Shown here one piece after another: positions 1 through 4,070 of a DNA stretch of 64,000 bases; the stretch's first letter is position 1, and each line of letters starts with the position of its first letter. The notes under the pieces are model-generated. The model was given only the letters and a program-made list of their open reading frames with translations. It did not search any database and had not been told where the DNA came from. This DNA is from Gillisella vitis. Lineage in GTDB: Bacteria; Pseudomonadota; Alphaproteobacteria; Rhizobiales; Rhizobiaceae. Where the stretch lies: NCBI GenBank assembly GCA_009744235.1, contig WPHV01000011.1, positions 1 to 64,000 of the forward strand. Direction: 5' to 3'. Made by a program: the position numbers and the translations under genes.

Positions 1-275
1 GCTGTCGAGAAGCCGCGATGTTCTTCCCGCTGTTTGGTCGCGTCGTGATGCTTCTTGCACAAGGTCTGGAAAGGTCCGTTCCAGAACTTCTCCGCATTGC
101 CGCTATGACGTTCAATGTGATCGCAGATGAAGCCCTTCTTGAGCCTCCCTTGCTGCCGGCACATGCGGCAATAGGGTTCCCGCTTCAGCTGGATTGCCCG
201 GATGGCTCGCCACCTCGTGGTGTAATACCAAGAGCGCCAGCCCTTGGCCTCATCTGATCGCTGATCTGTCGCCAT
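1..275 (-). CDS. Phage HNH endonuclease (C-terminus cut off by window edge)
   Basis: Read from the ATG at 275 leftward, the frame stays open for 91 codons to the window edge. It contains a CxxC pair (Cys36, Cys39), a central D-H-I motif at the HNH core, a conserved Asn-Gly-Pro stretch and a second C-x2-HH knuckle near residue 75. This is the pattern of small phage HNH nucleases. In HK97-like phages such a gene lies beside the terminase genes and helps DNA packaging, so the packaging and late genes may begin here; that is inference. It lies downstream of a hairpin terminator and of the NusG-like gene. Confidence 0.85.
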   Translation of the reverse strand, partial: MATDQRSDEAKGWRSWYYTTRWRAIRAIQLKREPYCRMCRQQGRLKKGFICDHIERHSGNAEKFWNGPFQTLCKKHHDATKQREEHRGFST

Positions 276-285
276 ATCCTAGAAC

Positions 286-312
286 GCAAAAAGGCGACCC
301 ATCGGCCGCCTT
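286..312 (-). terminator. Rho-independent terminator between NusG-like gene and HNH gene
   Basis: On the minus strand a 7-bp stem (GGCGGCC / GGTCGCC, one G-U pair) with a GATG loop is followed by five T residues (288-292). It sits between the NusG-like gene (stop at 484) and the HNH start (275), so it should stop the early leftward transcript before the HNH gene. Confidence 0.65.
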
Positions 313-483
313 GTCATCGTTCATCTGGTCATAGCTTACGCACTGGCCCTGAATCACATCGCCTATTGGCTTGGATCAGAGCGAGGCCGGGGGGTGAACA
401 TCAATCCCTTAGGAGCATCAGCGCGCCCCGGTCATCTCGGCGGGAAAGGCGCTATTCGCCTCTCCACGTTTCAAGCGATAATC

Positions 484-1140
484 TCAGTCAGAAATGAAGT
501 CAATCCCCATTGTGATTTCGCTCATACCGCCGAACAACGGCACGTCAACGACCATCTGGCCACGCTTCGACAGCACCTTGCGCACCGTCACCACGAAGTC
601 GGCAAACGGGCCAGAGCGGATCGTCACCTGCTTGCCCAGCACATCCGGCATCGGTGGAACATCCCGCCCATCCATATGTTTTCTTTCCGCTTTCTTGGCA
701 GACAGCATCAGTTGGCGCATCAATGATTCGGGCATCAGGTGCGGCTTGCCATCCTTGCCCATCAGCCCGCGAAGCTTTGAGGCAAGCATCAATCCGACGA
801 AGGCTTCATTGTCGGGAATGACCTGCACAAACAGATAACCCCGAAACACCGCCCGCTGGATTTCCACAGCCTTTTGACCGCGCTTTGGTGGCCGACGATG
901 CCGCTCCAAGGGGCACCAGCACTCGATTTCCTGCTGTTCGAGCGAACCGCGGATCGCCTCTTCCATACCGGCTTTGCAGCTCGCCACCACCCACCGGGCC
1001 AAGCGGTCGAACTCAGGCCGGTCGCGCCGGGCCATGGCAACCTGTCGCTGGCGCTTGGCCTCGATAGCGTTGACGTAAGCCAGCCTCGACAAGCCATCAT
1101 CCGAGACGCCATCCAGAAGTTTCCCGTTATGCTGCATCAT
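484..1140 (-). CDS. Phage NusG/RfaH-family transcription factor
   Basis: This 218-residue protein has a NusG N-terminal (NGN) domain at about residues 47-150, including an F-R-G-Y-L-F-V strand equivalent to the F-P-G-Y-V-F-V core of NusG, and a KOW-like C-terminal part (about 165-215) with G-x-x-V-T-I-R-S-G-P-F-A. NusG-family proteins bind the RNA polymerase clamp and change pausing or termination. A phage paralogue as the last gene of an early operon, just ahead of a terminator, suggests a processive antiterminator for the genes that follow; that role is inferred. The start overlaps the preceding gene by 14 bases. A second ATG follows immediately, so the start is uncertain by one codon. Confidence 0.85.
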   Translation of the reverse strand: MMQHNGKLLDGVSDDGLSRLAYVNAIEAKRQRQVAMARRDRPEFDRLARWVVASCKAGMEEAIRGSLEQQEIECWCPLERHRRPPKRGQKAVEIQRAVFRGYLFVQVIPDNEAFVGLMLASKLRGLMGKDGKPHLMPESLMRQLMLSAKKAERKHMDGRDVPPMPDVLGKQVTIRSGPFADFVVTVRKVLSKRGQMVVDVPLFGGMSEITMGIDFISD

Positions 1141-2410
1141 GGGTGCGTCCCTCGCTCAAGCTGGTTTGGAAATGGTCGAGTGCCGCCTCGACCGCCGCGT
1201 CGAGATCGGGCTGATCGGGGTCAATGGGCGGGAAATAGTTCCAGTCACGTAGGCCCTCGACGAACATCCAGCCACGGCGTTCATGCAGGCGCTTCCAGGC
1301 CGCAAACAGCGTACTGCTGCTTTCGACTTTTTCGAAGTCAGAGACCAGCGGCAGCAGGTCCACCGAGGTGACGAACGGCTCATTGCGCCGAGCAAGGTCG
1401 CGCATCCGGCTCACCAGCGGCCAGCCGTGTTCACGACGCTTTTCCCAAACCAGGGCTTCCCGGCTGATCGCGCCAGAAGCCAGCCGCCGATTGTCGAACG
1501 CCGTGAACACGAACTGGCCTGTTGGCTCGCAAAGCAGCGTTTCCAAGCGCCGCCCCATCCAGAGCTTGCCGCACACCTTGGCGGTGGCATGGGTTTGGAC
1601 CGCCTGGGCAACCTCAGGCATTTTTTCCCAAGCCCTGTCTCGCAGGAACACAGCGGCGAAGGTGAACGTGCCTTTGCCGATCCACTGGATGTAGGCCGGT
1701 GTTTTCTCGATGCAGGCCGCTCGCTGATCTGCCGTCAGGGCAAACCAAGCCTTCCTCGCTGCCGTGTCGCTGCTCTTGTCGTAATTCGGCCAAGTCGGAT
1801 ACCAGCGCTTGAAGGCGAGATCGATCTTTCGCAATTCCTCTCTCGAAAATTCCCCCCGCCCCGCGCCTGCGGTGGGAGAGTTGTTTGGAGAGTTAGCTGG
1901 AAGAATCTTATCTTGGTGGAGCTGCTCCACCACCTTTGTGGAACCATTTCCACCACCTTCGGGCGCCATTTCCACCACCTTTTCCGCACAAGGCGGTGGA
2001 GCGGCTCCACCACCTTCCGGCAAAATCTCACCCTCAAAAGGTGGTGTATCTCCTCCACCAGCTTGCGCATTTGCGACAGAAGCGGCGGCAGCACTGCCCG
2101 TCAGATCGCGGCCAGGCCAGCGGGCGATATACTCGTTTCGCTTCCACTTCTGCCCACGAAAGCCGTGCTGGGTGACCTCGATCCAGCCCGCCTGTTCGGC
2201 AACGTCCAGATGCTTCAGGATTGTTTTCTTATCGAGACCGGATAGCTCGACCAGTTCTGAGACGGGTGGATAGCAGGAACCACCCGTGGCATCCATCTTC
2301 AGGCCGAGCGTATGCAGCACCAGCCGCGTGATCGGCGGAAGGCCAGATTTGGCAACGGCATGACGCCAGGACCATGCCCGCGACGTTGCACCGTGATCAG
2401 GCTCCATCAT
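1127..2410 (-). CDS. Phage replication-type helix-turn-helix protein
   Basis: This is a 427-residue protein. Residues about 20-85 form a winged-helix domain of the kind found at the N-terminus of phage O/DnaD-like replication proteins (helices around L-V-E-L-S-G-L-D-K-K-T-I-L-K-H-L, then a wing). Residues about 105-185 are low-complexity and rich in Gly, Pro and Glu, and are encoded by the iteron-like repeats at 1915-2048. The C-terminal half has a conserved-looking W-Y-P-T-W-P start and may bind other replication proteins. It starts at ATGATG, overlapping the stop of the upstream gene by four bases (ATGA), which suggests translational coupling. Function as a replication initiator is inferred from the domain, the operon position and the internal repeats. 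Confidence 0.7.
   Translation of the reverse strand: MMEPDHGATSRAWSWRHAVAKSGLPPITRLVLHTLGLKMDATGGSCYPPVSELVELSGLDKKTILKHLDVAEQAGWIEVTQHGFRGQKWKRNEYIARWPGRDLTGSAAAASVANAQAGGGDTPPFEGEILPEGGGAAPPPCAEKVVEMAPEGGGNGSTKVVEQLHQDKILPANSPNNSPTAGAGRGEFSREELRKIDLAFKRWYPTWPNYDKSSDTAARKAWFALTADQRAACIEKTPAYIQWIGKGTFTFAAVFLRDRAWEKMPEVAQAVQTHATAKVCGKLWMGRRLETLLCEPTGQFVFTAFDNRRLASGAISREALVWEKRREHGWPLVSRMRDLARRNEPFVTSVDLLPLVSDFEKVESSSTLFAAWKRLHERRGWMFVEGLRDWNYFPPIDPDQPDLDAAVEAALDHFQTSLSEGRTHDAA
1915..2048. repeat. Iteron-like repeats inside the replication gene (candidate phage origin)
   Basis: Four perfect copies of TCCACCACCTT start at 1926, 1949, 1971 and 2006, with spacings of 23, 22 and 35 bases. Opposite-strand near-copies lie at 1990-2000 (AAGGCGGTGGA) and about 2038-2048 (AAGGTGGTGTA), and two copies sit in GGAGC/GCTCC dyads. 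The spacings are not multiples of three, so the same DNA word encodes E-G-G-G in some copies and K-V-V-E in others. This points to selection on DNA and not on peptide. Lambda-like phages carry their origin iterons inside the O gene in the same way. Confidence 0.6.
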
Positions 2411-2700
2411 GCCGCACCGCCTTTGCGCGCCACGTCCAGCATCGCCGCTCTGGCCGCACCAATGGTCAACAACACGCTATCGCGCCAGCAGCCCTGCCCG
2501 CTCCGCGTGGAATTGATCGCCGCAAACTCGGCATCAAGATAATCGACGCCAGCCAAAAACCCGGCCGTCCGCAACACCATGCAGATCGAGGCATGGTCGC
2601 GGTAAATGACACCCTGCGGCACCCGCAGTAGCCAATTGGCCCGCTCCGCGTCCGTCTGGCAATCGCAAAGCTGCTCTACGATTGGAAGTAGCCCGGTCAT
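2407..2700 (-). CDS. Hypothetical phage early protein (97 aa)
   Basis: I do not recognise this protein. It is 97 residues, begins at ATG 2700 and overlaps its neighbours on both sides by four bases, so it is clearly part of the translationally coupled early operon. It is mostly helical in appearance, with two Cys near the N-terminus (C-D-C-Q) and no membrane segment. Its position directly upstream of the replication-type gene suggests an accessory role in replication or early regulation, but nothing in the sequence proves this. Confidence 0.7.
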   Translation of the reverse strand: MTGLLPIVEQLCDCQTDAERANWLLRVPQGVIYRDHASICMVLRTAGFLAGVDYLDAEFAAINSTRSGQGCWRDSVLLTIGAARAAMLDVARKGGAA

Positions 2701-3254
2701 GCTTCACCCCCGCCGCGCAGCCACGCCTCGTACTCGCCAAACAGCGAGAGCCAGGCCGCTCTGACGCGGTCATCTTCATTGATCTGTTTTTTGCTGGTGA
2801 TGCCGAGGCGGTCCTTCAAAGCCGCGTCGGCAGTGTCTTTGTCGTCAACCACGCGCCCACCGCCGGTCTCGCTGAGAAATCGGTGAAAGGCAGCGTGGGA
2901 CAGCAGAATGGAGGCTTGTGCCGAGTGGTTCGGTTTGTTGTGGTGGGCCGCTGGCTGGCTATTGTGCGTCGCCAGCTCACCCCGCAGATCGCGCACGGCA
3001 ATCGCTGCCCGATCAACAAGGCGAAGAAACAGGCGCAAATGATCGAGCGCCCCGCAGATCAGGTCACGTTCGTCATGCAGGGCGGCCGGGTGAATGGTGG
3101 CAATATGCACCTGCTCACCCATCAGCCGATGCACCACCAGGCGCAACCCGCCCCGATCCGCTTCCAGCGTCCAGACATCATCATTCAGACGCTCTGCCGA
3201 CCCCTTGAGCCGGTTCACCGTCGAGGCTTCACGTTGGCGGTTCACATCGTGCAT
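2697..3254 (-). CDS. Hypothetical phage early protein (185 aa)
   Basis: I do not recognise this 185-residue protein. It has a basic N-terminus (M-H-D-V-N-R-Q-R), no signal peptide or membrane segment, a His-rich middle (about residues 95-115) and a charged C-terminus ending G-G-G-E-A. The ATG at 3254 overlaps the end of a 32-codon frame upstream, and its TGA overlaps the next ATG (ATGA). It belongs to the same leftward operon as the replication and NusG-like genes. Confidence 0.7.
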   Translation of the reverse strand: MHDVNRQREASTVNRLKGSAERLNDDVWTLEADRGGLRLVVHRLMGEQVHIATIHPAALHDERDLICGALDHLRLFLRLVDRAAIAVRDLRGELATHNSQPAAHHNKPNHSAQASILLSHAAFHRFLSETGGGRVVDDKDTADAALKDRLGITSKKQINEDDRVRAAWLSLFGEYEAWLRGGGEA

Positions 3255-3576: not shown

Positions 3577-4070
3577 GGCTGATCTCCCACAACCCGAAGG
3601 CCGAATTTTTCCCCGCCCCGCGCTTTCACACCGGCAAGCGCCTTGCGGAACACGCCAATCTTCGCTTCAAGCGCAGCCGCATCCCGGTCCATCTTGGTGG
3701 CTTCCGCCGGGGTCGCAACGAGATCAGAAAAGGCAATGGCTGCACCGGAAAAAAGATCACCGGCCTGCTGCATCATATCGGCATAGGCAAGGATGGCACT
3801 TTGCTCGACAGCACGGTCGCCTTCCGGGTCCGTCAACCGCCGACCGCTCAATTCCGCCATAGCCGAGGTGACAAGAGGCAGGCCGCATTCGCTCTCCAGG
3901 GCATAGACAACCGAAATCGGCATCAGGTCCGTATCACGCGGATTGTTCATCCGGCCGATATGACTGGGAGAAACAGACGAGATCTCAGACGCCCGCTCGA
4001 TGCCGCCAGCAAGCCTAATCAGGTCACGTTGCGCCGCTTTGATGCGATGAAACCAAGCGCTTGTTTGCAT
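3573..4070 (-). CDS. Phage regulatory protein, first gene after the TTTCCC operators
   Basis: From ATG 4070 the protein has 165 residues. The N-terminal half (M-Q-T-S-A-W-F-H-R-I-K-A-A-Q-R-D-L-I-R-L-A-G-G-I-E-R-A-S-E-I-S-S-V-S then P-S-H-I-G-R-M-N-N) has the shape of a helix-turn-helix of the CII/phage-regulator type, and the rest is helical. I prefer ATG 4070 over an in-frame start at 4133 because the longer form would read through the two palindromic operators at 4082-4126, and an AAAGG-like ribosome site lies just upstream of 4070. It may control replication or lysogeny; which is unknown. Confidence 0.6.
   Translation of the reverse strand: MQTSAWFHRIKAAQRDLIRLAGGIERASEISSVSPSHIGRMNNPRDTDLMPISVVYALESECGLPLVTSAMAELSGRRLTDPEGDRAVEQSAILAYADMMQQAGDLFSGAAIAFSDLVATPAEATKMDRDAAALEAKIGVFRKALAGVKARGGEKFGLRVVGDQP

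Follow-up and report, generated by a model that had tools for sequence, protein, structure and literature searches.

Specialised NusG paralogues named in the literature include RfaH, LoaP, UpxY, TaA and ActX (PMC7819879, PMC6391919, PMC7593976, and PMC12691694), and rfaH-like genes have been noted on prophages (PMC7593976). LoaP needs a hairpin in the leader of its operon and reads through an intrinsic terminator (PMC12691694). Among phage systems, Q of lambda uses a sigma-dependent pause together with a DNA element for its loading (PMC7171158), N of lambda recruits host NusG and is itself unstructured (PMC7819879), and the put RNAs of HK022, approximately 70 nt long with two stem-loops, serve early genes and require no phage protein (PMC9378689). 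A phage late-gene NusG is not described in the passages covered from the four NusG-paralogue sources. Late-gene activation in phages outside the lambda group is little known, and a phage NusG paired with a conserved RNA would be one testable answer.

An earlier, sequence-only reading of this locus proposed such a late-gene NusG and called it little described. For the gene and its place, that judgement needs correction. The window protein belongs to the same family (PHROG 6386) as NusG-like genes annotated in the same place, before the packaging genes, in the records of phages phi2LM21, phi3LM21, PPF1, vB_MseS-P1, and Rivra, and, with a gene of phrog_25909 that matches PHROG 6386 weakly, phiLM21; for phiLM21-like prophages, PMC12429752 already uses the label "transcription antiterminator" and places the gene last in the early region. 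The phage records name the NusG protein by homology, and the annotations examined mark no RNA element. The terms "RNA motif" and "NusG" are absent from the text of PMC12429752, and no description of the RNA was found in Rfam or in the literature covered, with preprints and most subscription papers outside that coverage. What appears to be new here is the RNA element, the antiterminator label and the gene position being already known.

The window is the whole stretch of DNA that was analysed, 64,000 nt in length. It begins at base 1 of its contig (C3), and for this reason late genes are not visible inside it. The features of the locus are collected in Table 1.

Table 1. Coordinates of the NusG gene, the conserved element, and flanking features in the window
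Feature	Position	Strand	Basis
HNH endonuclease gene, first past the terminator, runs off the window	3..275	(-)	phrog_2323, 6.9e-26
Intrinsic-type terminator between element and HNH gene	286..312	(-)	stem 312-291, then T-run
Element core: outer helix, inner helix, third hairpin	324..397	(-)	covariance model R1, 56.6 bits, E 2.4e-14; covariation
Near-invariant motif TCARGGYCAGTGCNNNAGCTATG	330..352	(-)	third hairpin CAGTGC-tetraloop-GCTATG at 330-345
Leader 5' part, NusG stop codon to element core	398..483	(-)	alignment of 76 type I leaders, stop to motif
Phage NusG paralogue ORF	484..1140	(-)	218 aa, NGN + KOW
Replication-initiator gene, neighbour outside the NusG-element unit	1127..2410	(-)	phrog_270, 5.2e-31

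The predicted NGN and KOW domains of the window protein were confirmed. Profile searches match Pfam NusG (2.3e-12) and Pfam KOW (6.5e-4, slightly below the Pfam cut-off), with model matches across both NGN and KOW, and residues 47-217 match phrog_6386, "transcription antiterminator" (9e-27). The protein comprises a helical N-terminal extension (approximately residues 1-46), an NGN domain (approximately 49-150), and a KOW β-barrel (approximately 163-218); AlphaFold predicts the C-terminal domain as a β-barrel and leaves room for another state. A GPFADF stretch is kept in the KOW domain (residues 177-182). In E. coli NusG, this region contacts Rho and S10, so a loss of Rho binding is not suggested, a point that counts against the explanation preferred below. 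The NusG ORF overlaps the replication-initiator ORF by 14 nt. The same genome has an additional standard-length NusG (G000:C3:104718-105215), which makes the window protein a paralogue; with NGN and KOW homology, a housekeeping NusG alongside, and a long target operon in relatives, it shares these features with the specialised NusG paralogues (NusG-SP), whose antitermination activity it would also have. Three phage-type NusG genes are present in this genome (G000:C1:1893-2543, G000:C3:490-1140, and G000:C6:14023-14670), two of them with the RNA element.

The element was found by aligning the DNA past the NusG stop codon, where a block is conserved among otherwise dissimilar phages. Its core of approximately 75 nt has two or three helices, in the order outer helix (GCCYUGA/UCARGGC), variable inner helix, and CAGUGC-tetraloop-GCUAUG. 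Model R1 was built from 64 sequences and contains 16 pairs. In alignment A2, 92.5% of cells pair and 59 cells carry two-sided changes against 21.5 in shuffles, while the number of pairs with such changes differs weakly (7 vs 5.5 shuffled, 70 of 500 shuffles being as high). In alignment A4, which was assembled from protein-found and model-found loci and, having been fitted to the model, is biased toward R1, two-sided changes occur in 10 of 16 pairs against 5.1 in shuffles (none of 500 as high), and shifting the partner by 1-3 columns lowers pairing from 92% to 18-44%. In helix 1, read on the (-) strand, columns 32-34 contain U-G in 12 cells and nothing non-standard. Across the helices as a whole, G-U cells are not above A-C cells (29 vs 32 in A2, 15 vs 13 in A4), so the RNA strand is not proved by wobble counts. 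Folded alone, the window element is no more stable than shuffles (z -1.0). The element is a conserved, covarying, RNA-like structure, and its action would be as RNA. An ops-like pause or an RNA hairpin at 280-480 had been suggested as something to look for in related phages; the core of the E. coli ops sequence occurs in none of 130 leaders, which contain this multi-helix element.

The third hairpin shows almost no variation and was in large part fixed in the search pattern, so that its helix is plausible and its pairing putative. Its loops in 91 loci read GUA, GCA, UAC, GAA, GAU, GAC, GUG, or GAG, each then followed by A; most are of GNRA type (GUA, GCA, GAA), with UAC and others also present. 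Tetraloop type was rejected as a co-evolution marker, as the GNRA and UACA rows need five changes on the tree and hence have no tight link to NusG clades. Searches of Rfam 15 gave three weak matches in window positions 1-3000 at E up to 5, none over the element, one tRNA only at gathering thresholds in L008, L009, L049, L053, and L056, and no match at gathering thresholds in L314, L316, and L317. The element thus adds a candidate structured-RNA class without an Rfam match in the loci searched. In PPF1, a short "hypothetical protein" ORF, PPF1_92 (L314:3673-3825), is drawn over most of the element (3712-3787) and is probably not a gene.

The tie between element and NusG was seen with a search pattern, TCARGGYCAGTGCNNNAGCTATG, that is DNA only and contains no protein information. 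It matched at least 120 stretches among viral contigs, 80 of which were fetched; this NusG lies upstream in 76, and the remaining four have 37-113 nt of upstream DNA. A near-identical pattern, run over one genome per bacterial or archaeal species, gave 59 matches: NusG is present in 54, two are truncated on the upstream side, at 56 and 302 nt, and three are without it (an Acidobacteria MAG, a filamentous cyanobacterium, and a Doudnabacteria MAG). Approximately four chance matches are expected in the species collection, so three NusG-less matches are as expected; the other 56 genome records are titled Rhizobiales, nearly all of them from Rhizobiaceae or Brucellaceae genera. Altogether, the 139 fetched loci comprise 130 with NusG 86-182 nt upstream (stop codon to motif, median 132), six truncated upstream (37-302 nt), and the three without NusG. 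Viral and genome loci overlap, with 105 distinct core strings among the 130.

Searching with R1 gave the same picture from the side of the structure. Across 247 genomes of the host family there are 27 matches of at least 38 bits, in 23 genomes, and all 27 lie directly behind a same-orientation NusG in their own genome, among the NusG matches listed; the remaining six matches are below 25 bits, none beside a NusG among the matches listed. From the side of the protein, 27 of the 40 NusG matches of at least 140 bits among those listed have this (type I) element, and 10 have other conserved leaders together with a downstream TerL (seven type II, three of a further kind). Two more, G000:C6 and G664:C4, are without TerL over 14 and 8 kb, respectively, and the last, G007:C6, is a shortened gene beyond which 321 nt of contig remain. 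In that last locus (L048), near the contig end, the shortened NusG 3' end is followed by unrelated sequence. Occurrence beyond the bacterial family was considered and rejected: among 385 class-level genomes, R1 matched 10 beyond the window's own (E 1.8e-4 to 9.3e-3); this NusG was found solely at the window's own locus among 12 class-level loci examined (L242-L253), and none of the 385 but the window's own has NusG at E <= 1e-37. The NusG-element unit is strongly supported. At L010:5973-6629, a NusG with an early in-frame stop has an R1 match of 48.1 bits behind it.

The stem and T-run noted past the NusG gene are present, and the 48-nt fold has a z of -3.5. A terminator scan of window positions 1-1300 found one site against a shuffle mean of 1.3, so the weight of the terminator rests on relatives. 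There, the 110 nt past the motif contain a terminator-like site in 110 of 133 loci, compared with 46 of 1330 shuffles; this count excludes, from the 139 loci, L198, L218, and L229 (no NusG) and three with less than 110 nt remaining. The feature is not universal, being missing from 23 of the 133 type I loci by the criterion used. No sigma-70-like promoter was found in window positions 1-1300, a result that says little for alphaproteobacteria.

The window's nearest relatives, L042 and L044 (NusG 94% and 91% identical), carry an HNH gene plus TerL, portal, and protease genes on the downstream side. The HNH gene is not a constant neighbour: a match beginning within 800 nt was found in at least 61 of the 130 loci with NusG, a lower bound as some loci end early. 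TerL was sought in 22 NusG loci with proteins of two named phages and lies downstream in 14, L009, a source of query proteins, included. Four of the eight loci without TerL end too soon past NusG (the window, L007, L008, and L048); in one of these, Rivra (L008), TerS and TerL are on the other stretch of the record. The remaining four (L006, L045, L046, and L050) have 14-18 kb of downstream DNA in which TerL was not found. NusG is the last gene before the packaging and virion genes in relatives, and structural genes do lie downstream, contrary to the refuting condition named with the earlier reading. Among the 130 loci that have both NusG and motif, the two replication types are found with each of the two TerL types (23, 8, 23, and 17 loci); for the other 59, one or both of these types could not be assigned. 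The pairing of NusG with the element persists through exchange of the surrounding replication and terminase modules.

NusG similarity leads to Rivra, phi3LM21, phi2LM21, PPF1, vB_MseS-P1, and the "Nostoc" phage Nsp-JY10. In all six, an initiator-like gene comes first, NusG next, and the packaging genes last, and R1 matches at 64-81 bits. In the linear PPF1 record, NusG is at the right end and TerL at the left end. The complete Rivra genome, searched as two stretches, gives one strong R1 match. Of the seven named phages examined, the exception is phiLM21, in which R1 finds no match and a more distant NusG-like gene (L319:2710-3390; phrog_25909, weak phrog_6386 match) precedes HNH and terminase genes; this phage may have its own cis signal. 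R1 also finds no match in a human-gut record (L061). The phages examined are the six rhizobial-type phages and phiLM21, by accession, and L061 with R1 only, among 33, 27, and 11 listed records with NusG matches; records outside the examined set include phages of Microcystis, Acinetobacter, Listeria, Salmonella, Staphylococcus, and Enterococcus, Bacillus phage G, and others. Nsp-JY10 (L318, PP395642), recorded from Nostoc, carries the full rhizobial-type cassette (R1 78.7 bits); a rhizobium present in the culture may be the actual host.

A second NusG clade comprises 15 of 98 rows in a quick tree (SH-aLRT 99), the rows having been reduced from 172 by removal of near-copies and of L059, which is cut by a contig end. 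This clade mostly has the type II leader, which reads AGGACGASCYGAMAGAGTCGCAC from the stop codon, then GCGCCATCRGCCCCAG-helix-CGCAATGG. The type II pattern was found in 10 viral stretches, and in all 10 a NusG ends 12-18 nt upstream. TerL lies downstream in six; L306 and L310 (881 and 482 nt left) show an HNH or p28-like gene, L311 has a portal gene at 1.9 kb and a TerL-like match upstream instead, and L308 (714 nt left) shows no TerL, HNH, p28-like gene, or portal. By eye, no U-run terminator is seen in type II leaders, and phage records searched at the DNA level for distant matches to the type II leader plus the start of the next gene gave none. Mosaics occur: L069 and L124 have a second-clade NusG with a type I core, preceded in L069 by a type II-like GCGCCATCGGCCCCAG. 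L286, L289, and L290 share a near-identical further leader, with an CAGGACGACCTG-type start and a T-rich tract approximately 130 nt past the NusG stop, that falls outside both R1 and the strict type II pattern.

A natural control is provided by L006, L045, L046, and L050, whose NusG proteins are among the closest to that of the window; they are without the element, and no late genes were found in the fetched stretches. These loci belong to integrase-bearing elements (L006/L296 in G000:C6, L045/L300 and L046/L298 in G015:C1, and L050/L299 in G012:C13), three of the four with tRNA-Arg or tRNA-Gly at one end. L296 also has an S24 repressor and an MT-A70/ParB-like gene. Such elements may represent satellites or remnants of phages; the stretches compared show no attachment repeats around them, and "satellite" therefore stays a guess.

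Because NusG is the last gene before packaging and is tied to a conserved element before a terminator, "candidate late-gene antiterminator" is the best reading of the gene, as had been suggested without knowledge of the element. Late-gene antitermination is moderately to strongly supported by homology, gene order, strict linkage, covariation, a terminator in most loci, and the single copy in the one complete phage genome searched. Probably, the phage NusG and the cis RNA form one late-gene control unit in which NusG, recruited via the RNA, would carry polymerase past terminators. NusG would be made last from the early transcript; transcription would then cross the element just past the NusG stop and, in most relatives, meet a terminator before the packaging genes. 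Accumulated NusG, or a complex containing it, would recognise the folded element in the nascent RNA and engage RNA polymerase through the NGN domain, and polymerase would thereby be taken past this terminator and those further along the late operon. We infer that the element acts as RNA, that binding is direct, that antitermination is processive, and that the timing is early to late. The arrangement suggests an undescribed RNA-guided late-gene switch.

Other explanations of the conserved stretch need to be weighed against this one. The stretch could be a DNA site for packaging (cos or pac) or replication, with NusG an early factor merely beside it. Phages of this kind often have cos nearby, the element adjoins HNH and terminase genes, and the wobble counts leave the RNA strand unproved. 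A packaging or replication site would sit poorly with an element that is tied to NusG, accompanies either TerL type and either replication type, and has covarying helices, including helix 1 with its U-G cells and no non-standard cell; in Rivra the element is 634 nt from the record end, while TerS starts at base 3 of the record. A DNA site is accordingly very improbable. The element might instead work as a structure at the mRNA 3' end, stabilising nusG mRNA or controlling it or its translation, and have no part in the late operon, since it begins at the nusG stop and is followed by a terminator in most loci. Against this, the four NusG copies without late genes in the fetched stretch also lack the element, and type II loci, in which no terminator is seen by eye, retain a conserved leader; this is the least probable of the explanations considered.

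The RNA could also act on polymerase alone, in the manner of HK022 put, or via host Nus factors, leaving the phage NusG as, for example, a general elongation or anti-Rho factor. The size is suggestive, a core of approximately 75 nt with two or three helices being close to the protein-free put RNAs (PMC9378689). However, a put-like RNA would have no need of an adjoining upstream NusG gene, whereas element and NusG are nearly always found together, and a different leader type accompanies one of the NusG clades. Action of the RNA without the phage NusG is therefore improbable, and recruitment of NusG via the RNA is retained as the preferred reading. In many temperate phages whose hosts are root-nodule or crown-gall bacteria, a phage-borne NusG is followed by a conserved, presumably folded RNA and then by virion genes. 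A second independent RNA-linked NusG would let the rules of recruitment be compared between NusG families, with type I, type II, and mosaic loci as natural variants ready for such work.

Among known systems, lambda Q occupies the same place in the phage programme as the candidate late-gene antiterminator described here, and is not known to be homologous to NusG. Phage antitermination via nascent RNA, as presumed for this element, is a feature of HK022 put RNA and of lambda N/nut. By curated cut-offs, the window NusG would not be classed as RfaH (34.7 against a cut-off of 144.5, and 36.2 against 124), UpxY (51.1 against 100), or LoaP (40.9 bits against 125). It does not look like the RfaH-type factor of the earlier reading: the C-terminal domain is predicted as a β-barrel, which leaves room for a fold-switched α-helical state, the cis signal looks multi-helix and LoaP-like, and the RfaH/ops reading was rejected on the absence of the ops core from the leaders. 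LoaP is similar in having an RNA structure in the leader of its target operon, here a conserved covarying element with a presumed RNA function, and the proposed working is LoaP-like with a different NusG subfamily and a different RNA. The LoaP RNA is a small UNCG-type hairpin serving antibiotic operons of Bacillota (dfn/mln, Bacillus velezensis), whereas the multi-helix element here has no UNCG-type loop in its third hairpin in 91 type I loci and would serve phage late genes; the window NusG, compared with LoaP, has approximately 46 residues before NGN. On balance, we favour phage-borne, RNA-guided late-gene antitermination by a second NusG family that reads a specific nascent RNA, LoaP having been called the sole known one in 2025. 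This family would have its own multi-helix RNA class of at least two structural types, perhaps read by an arginine-rich N-terminal helix before NGN, and would play the part of Q in a large group of Rhizobiales phages that shuffle their modules.
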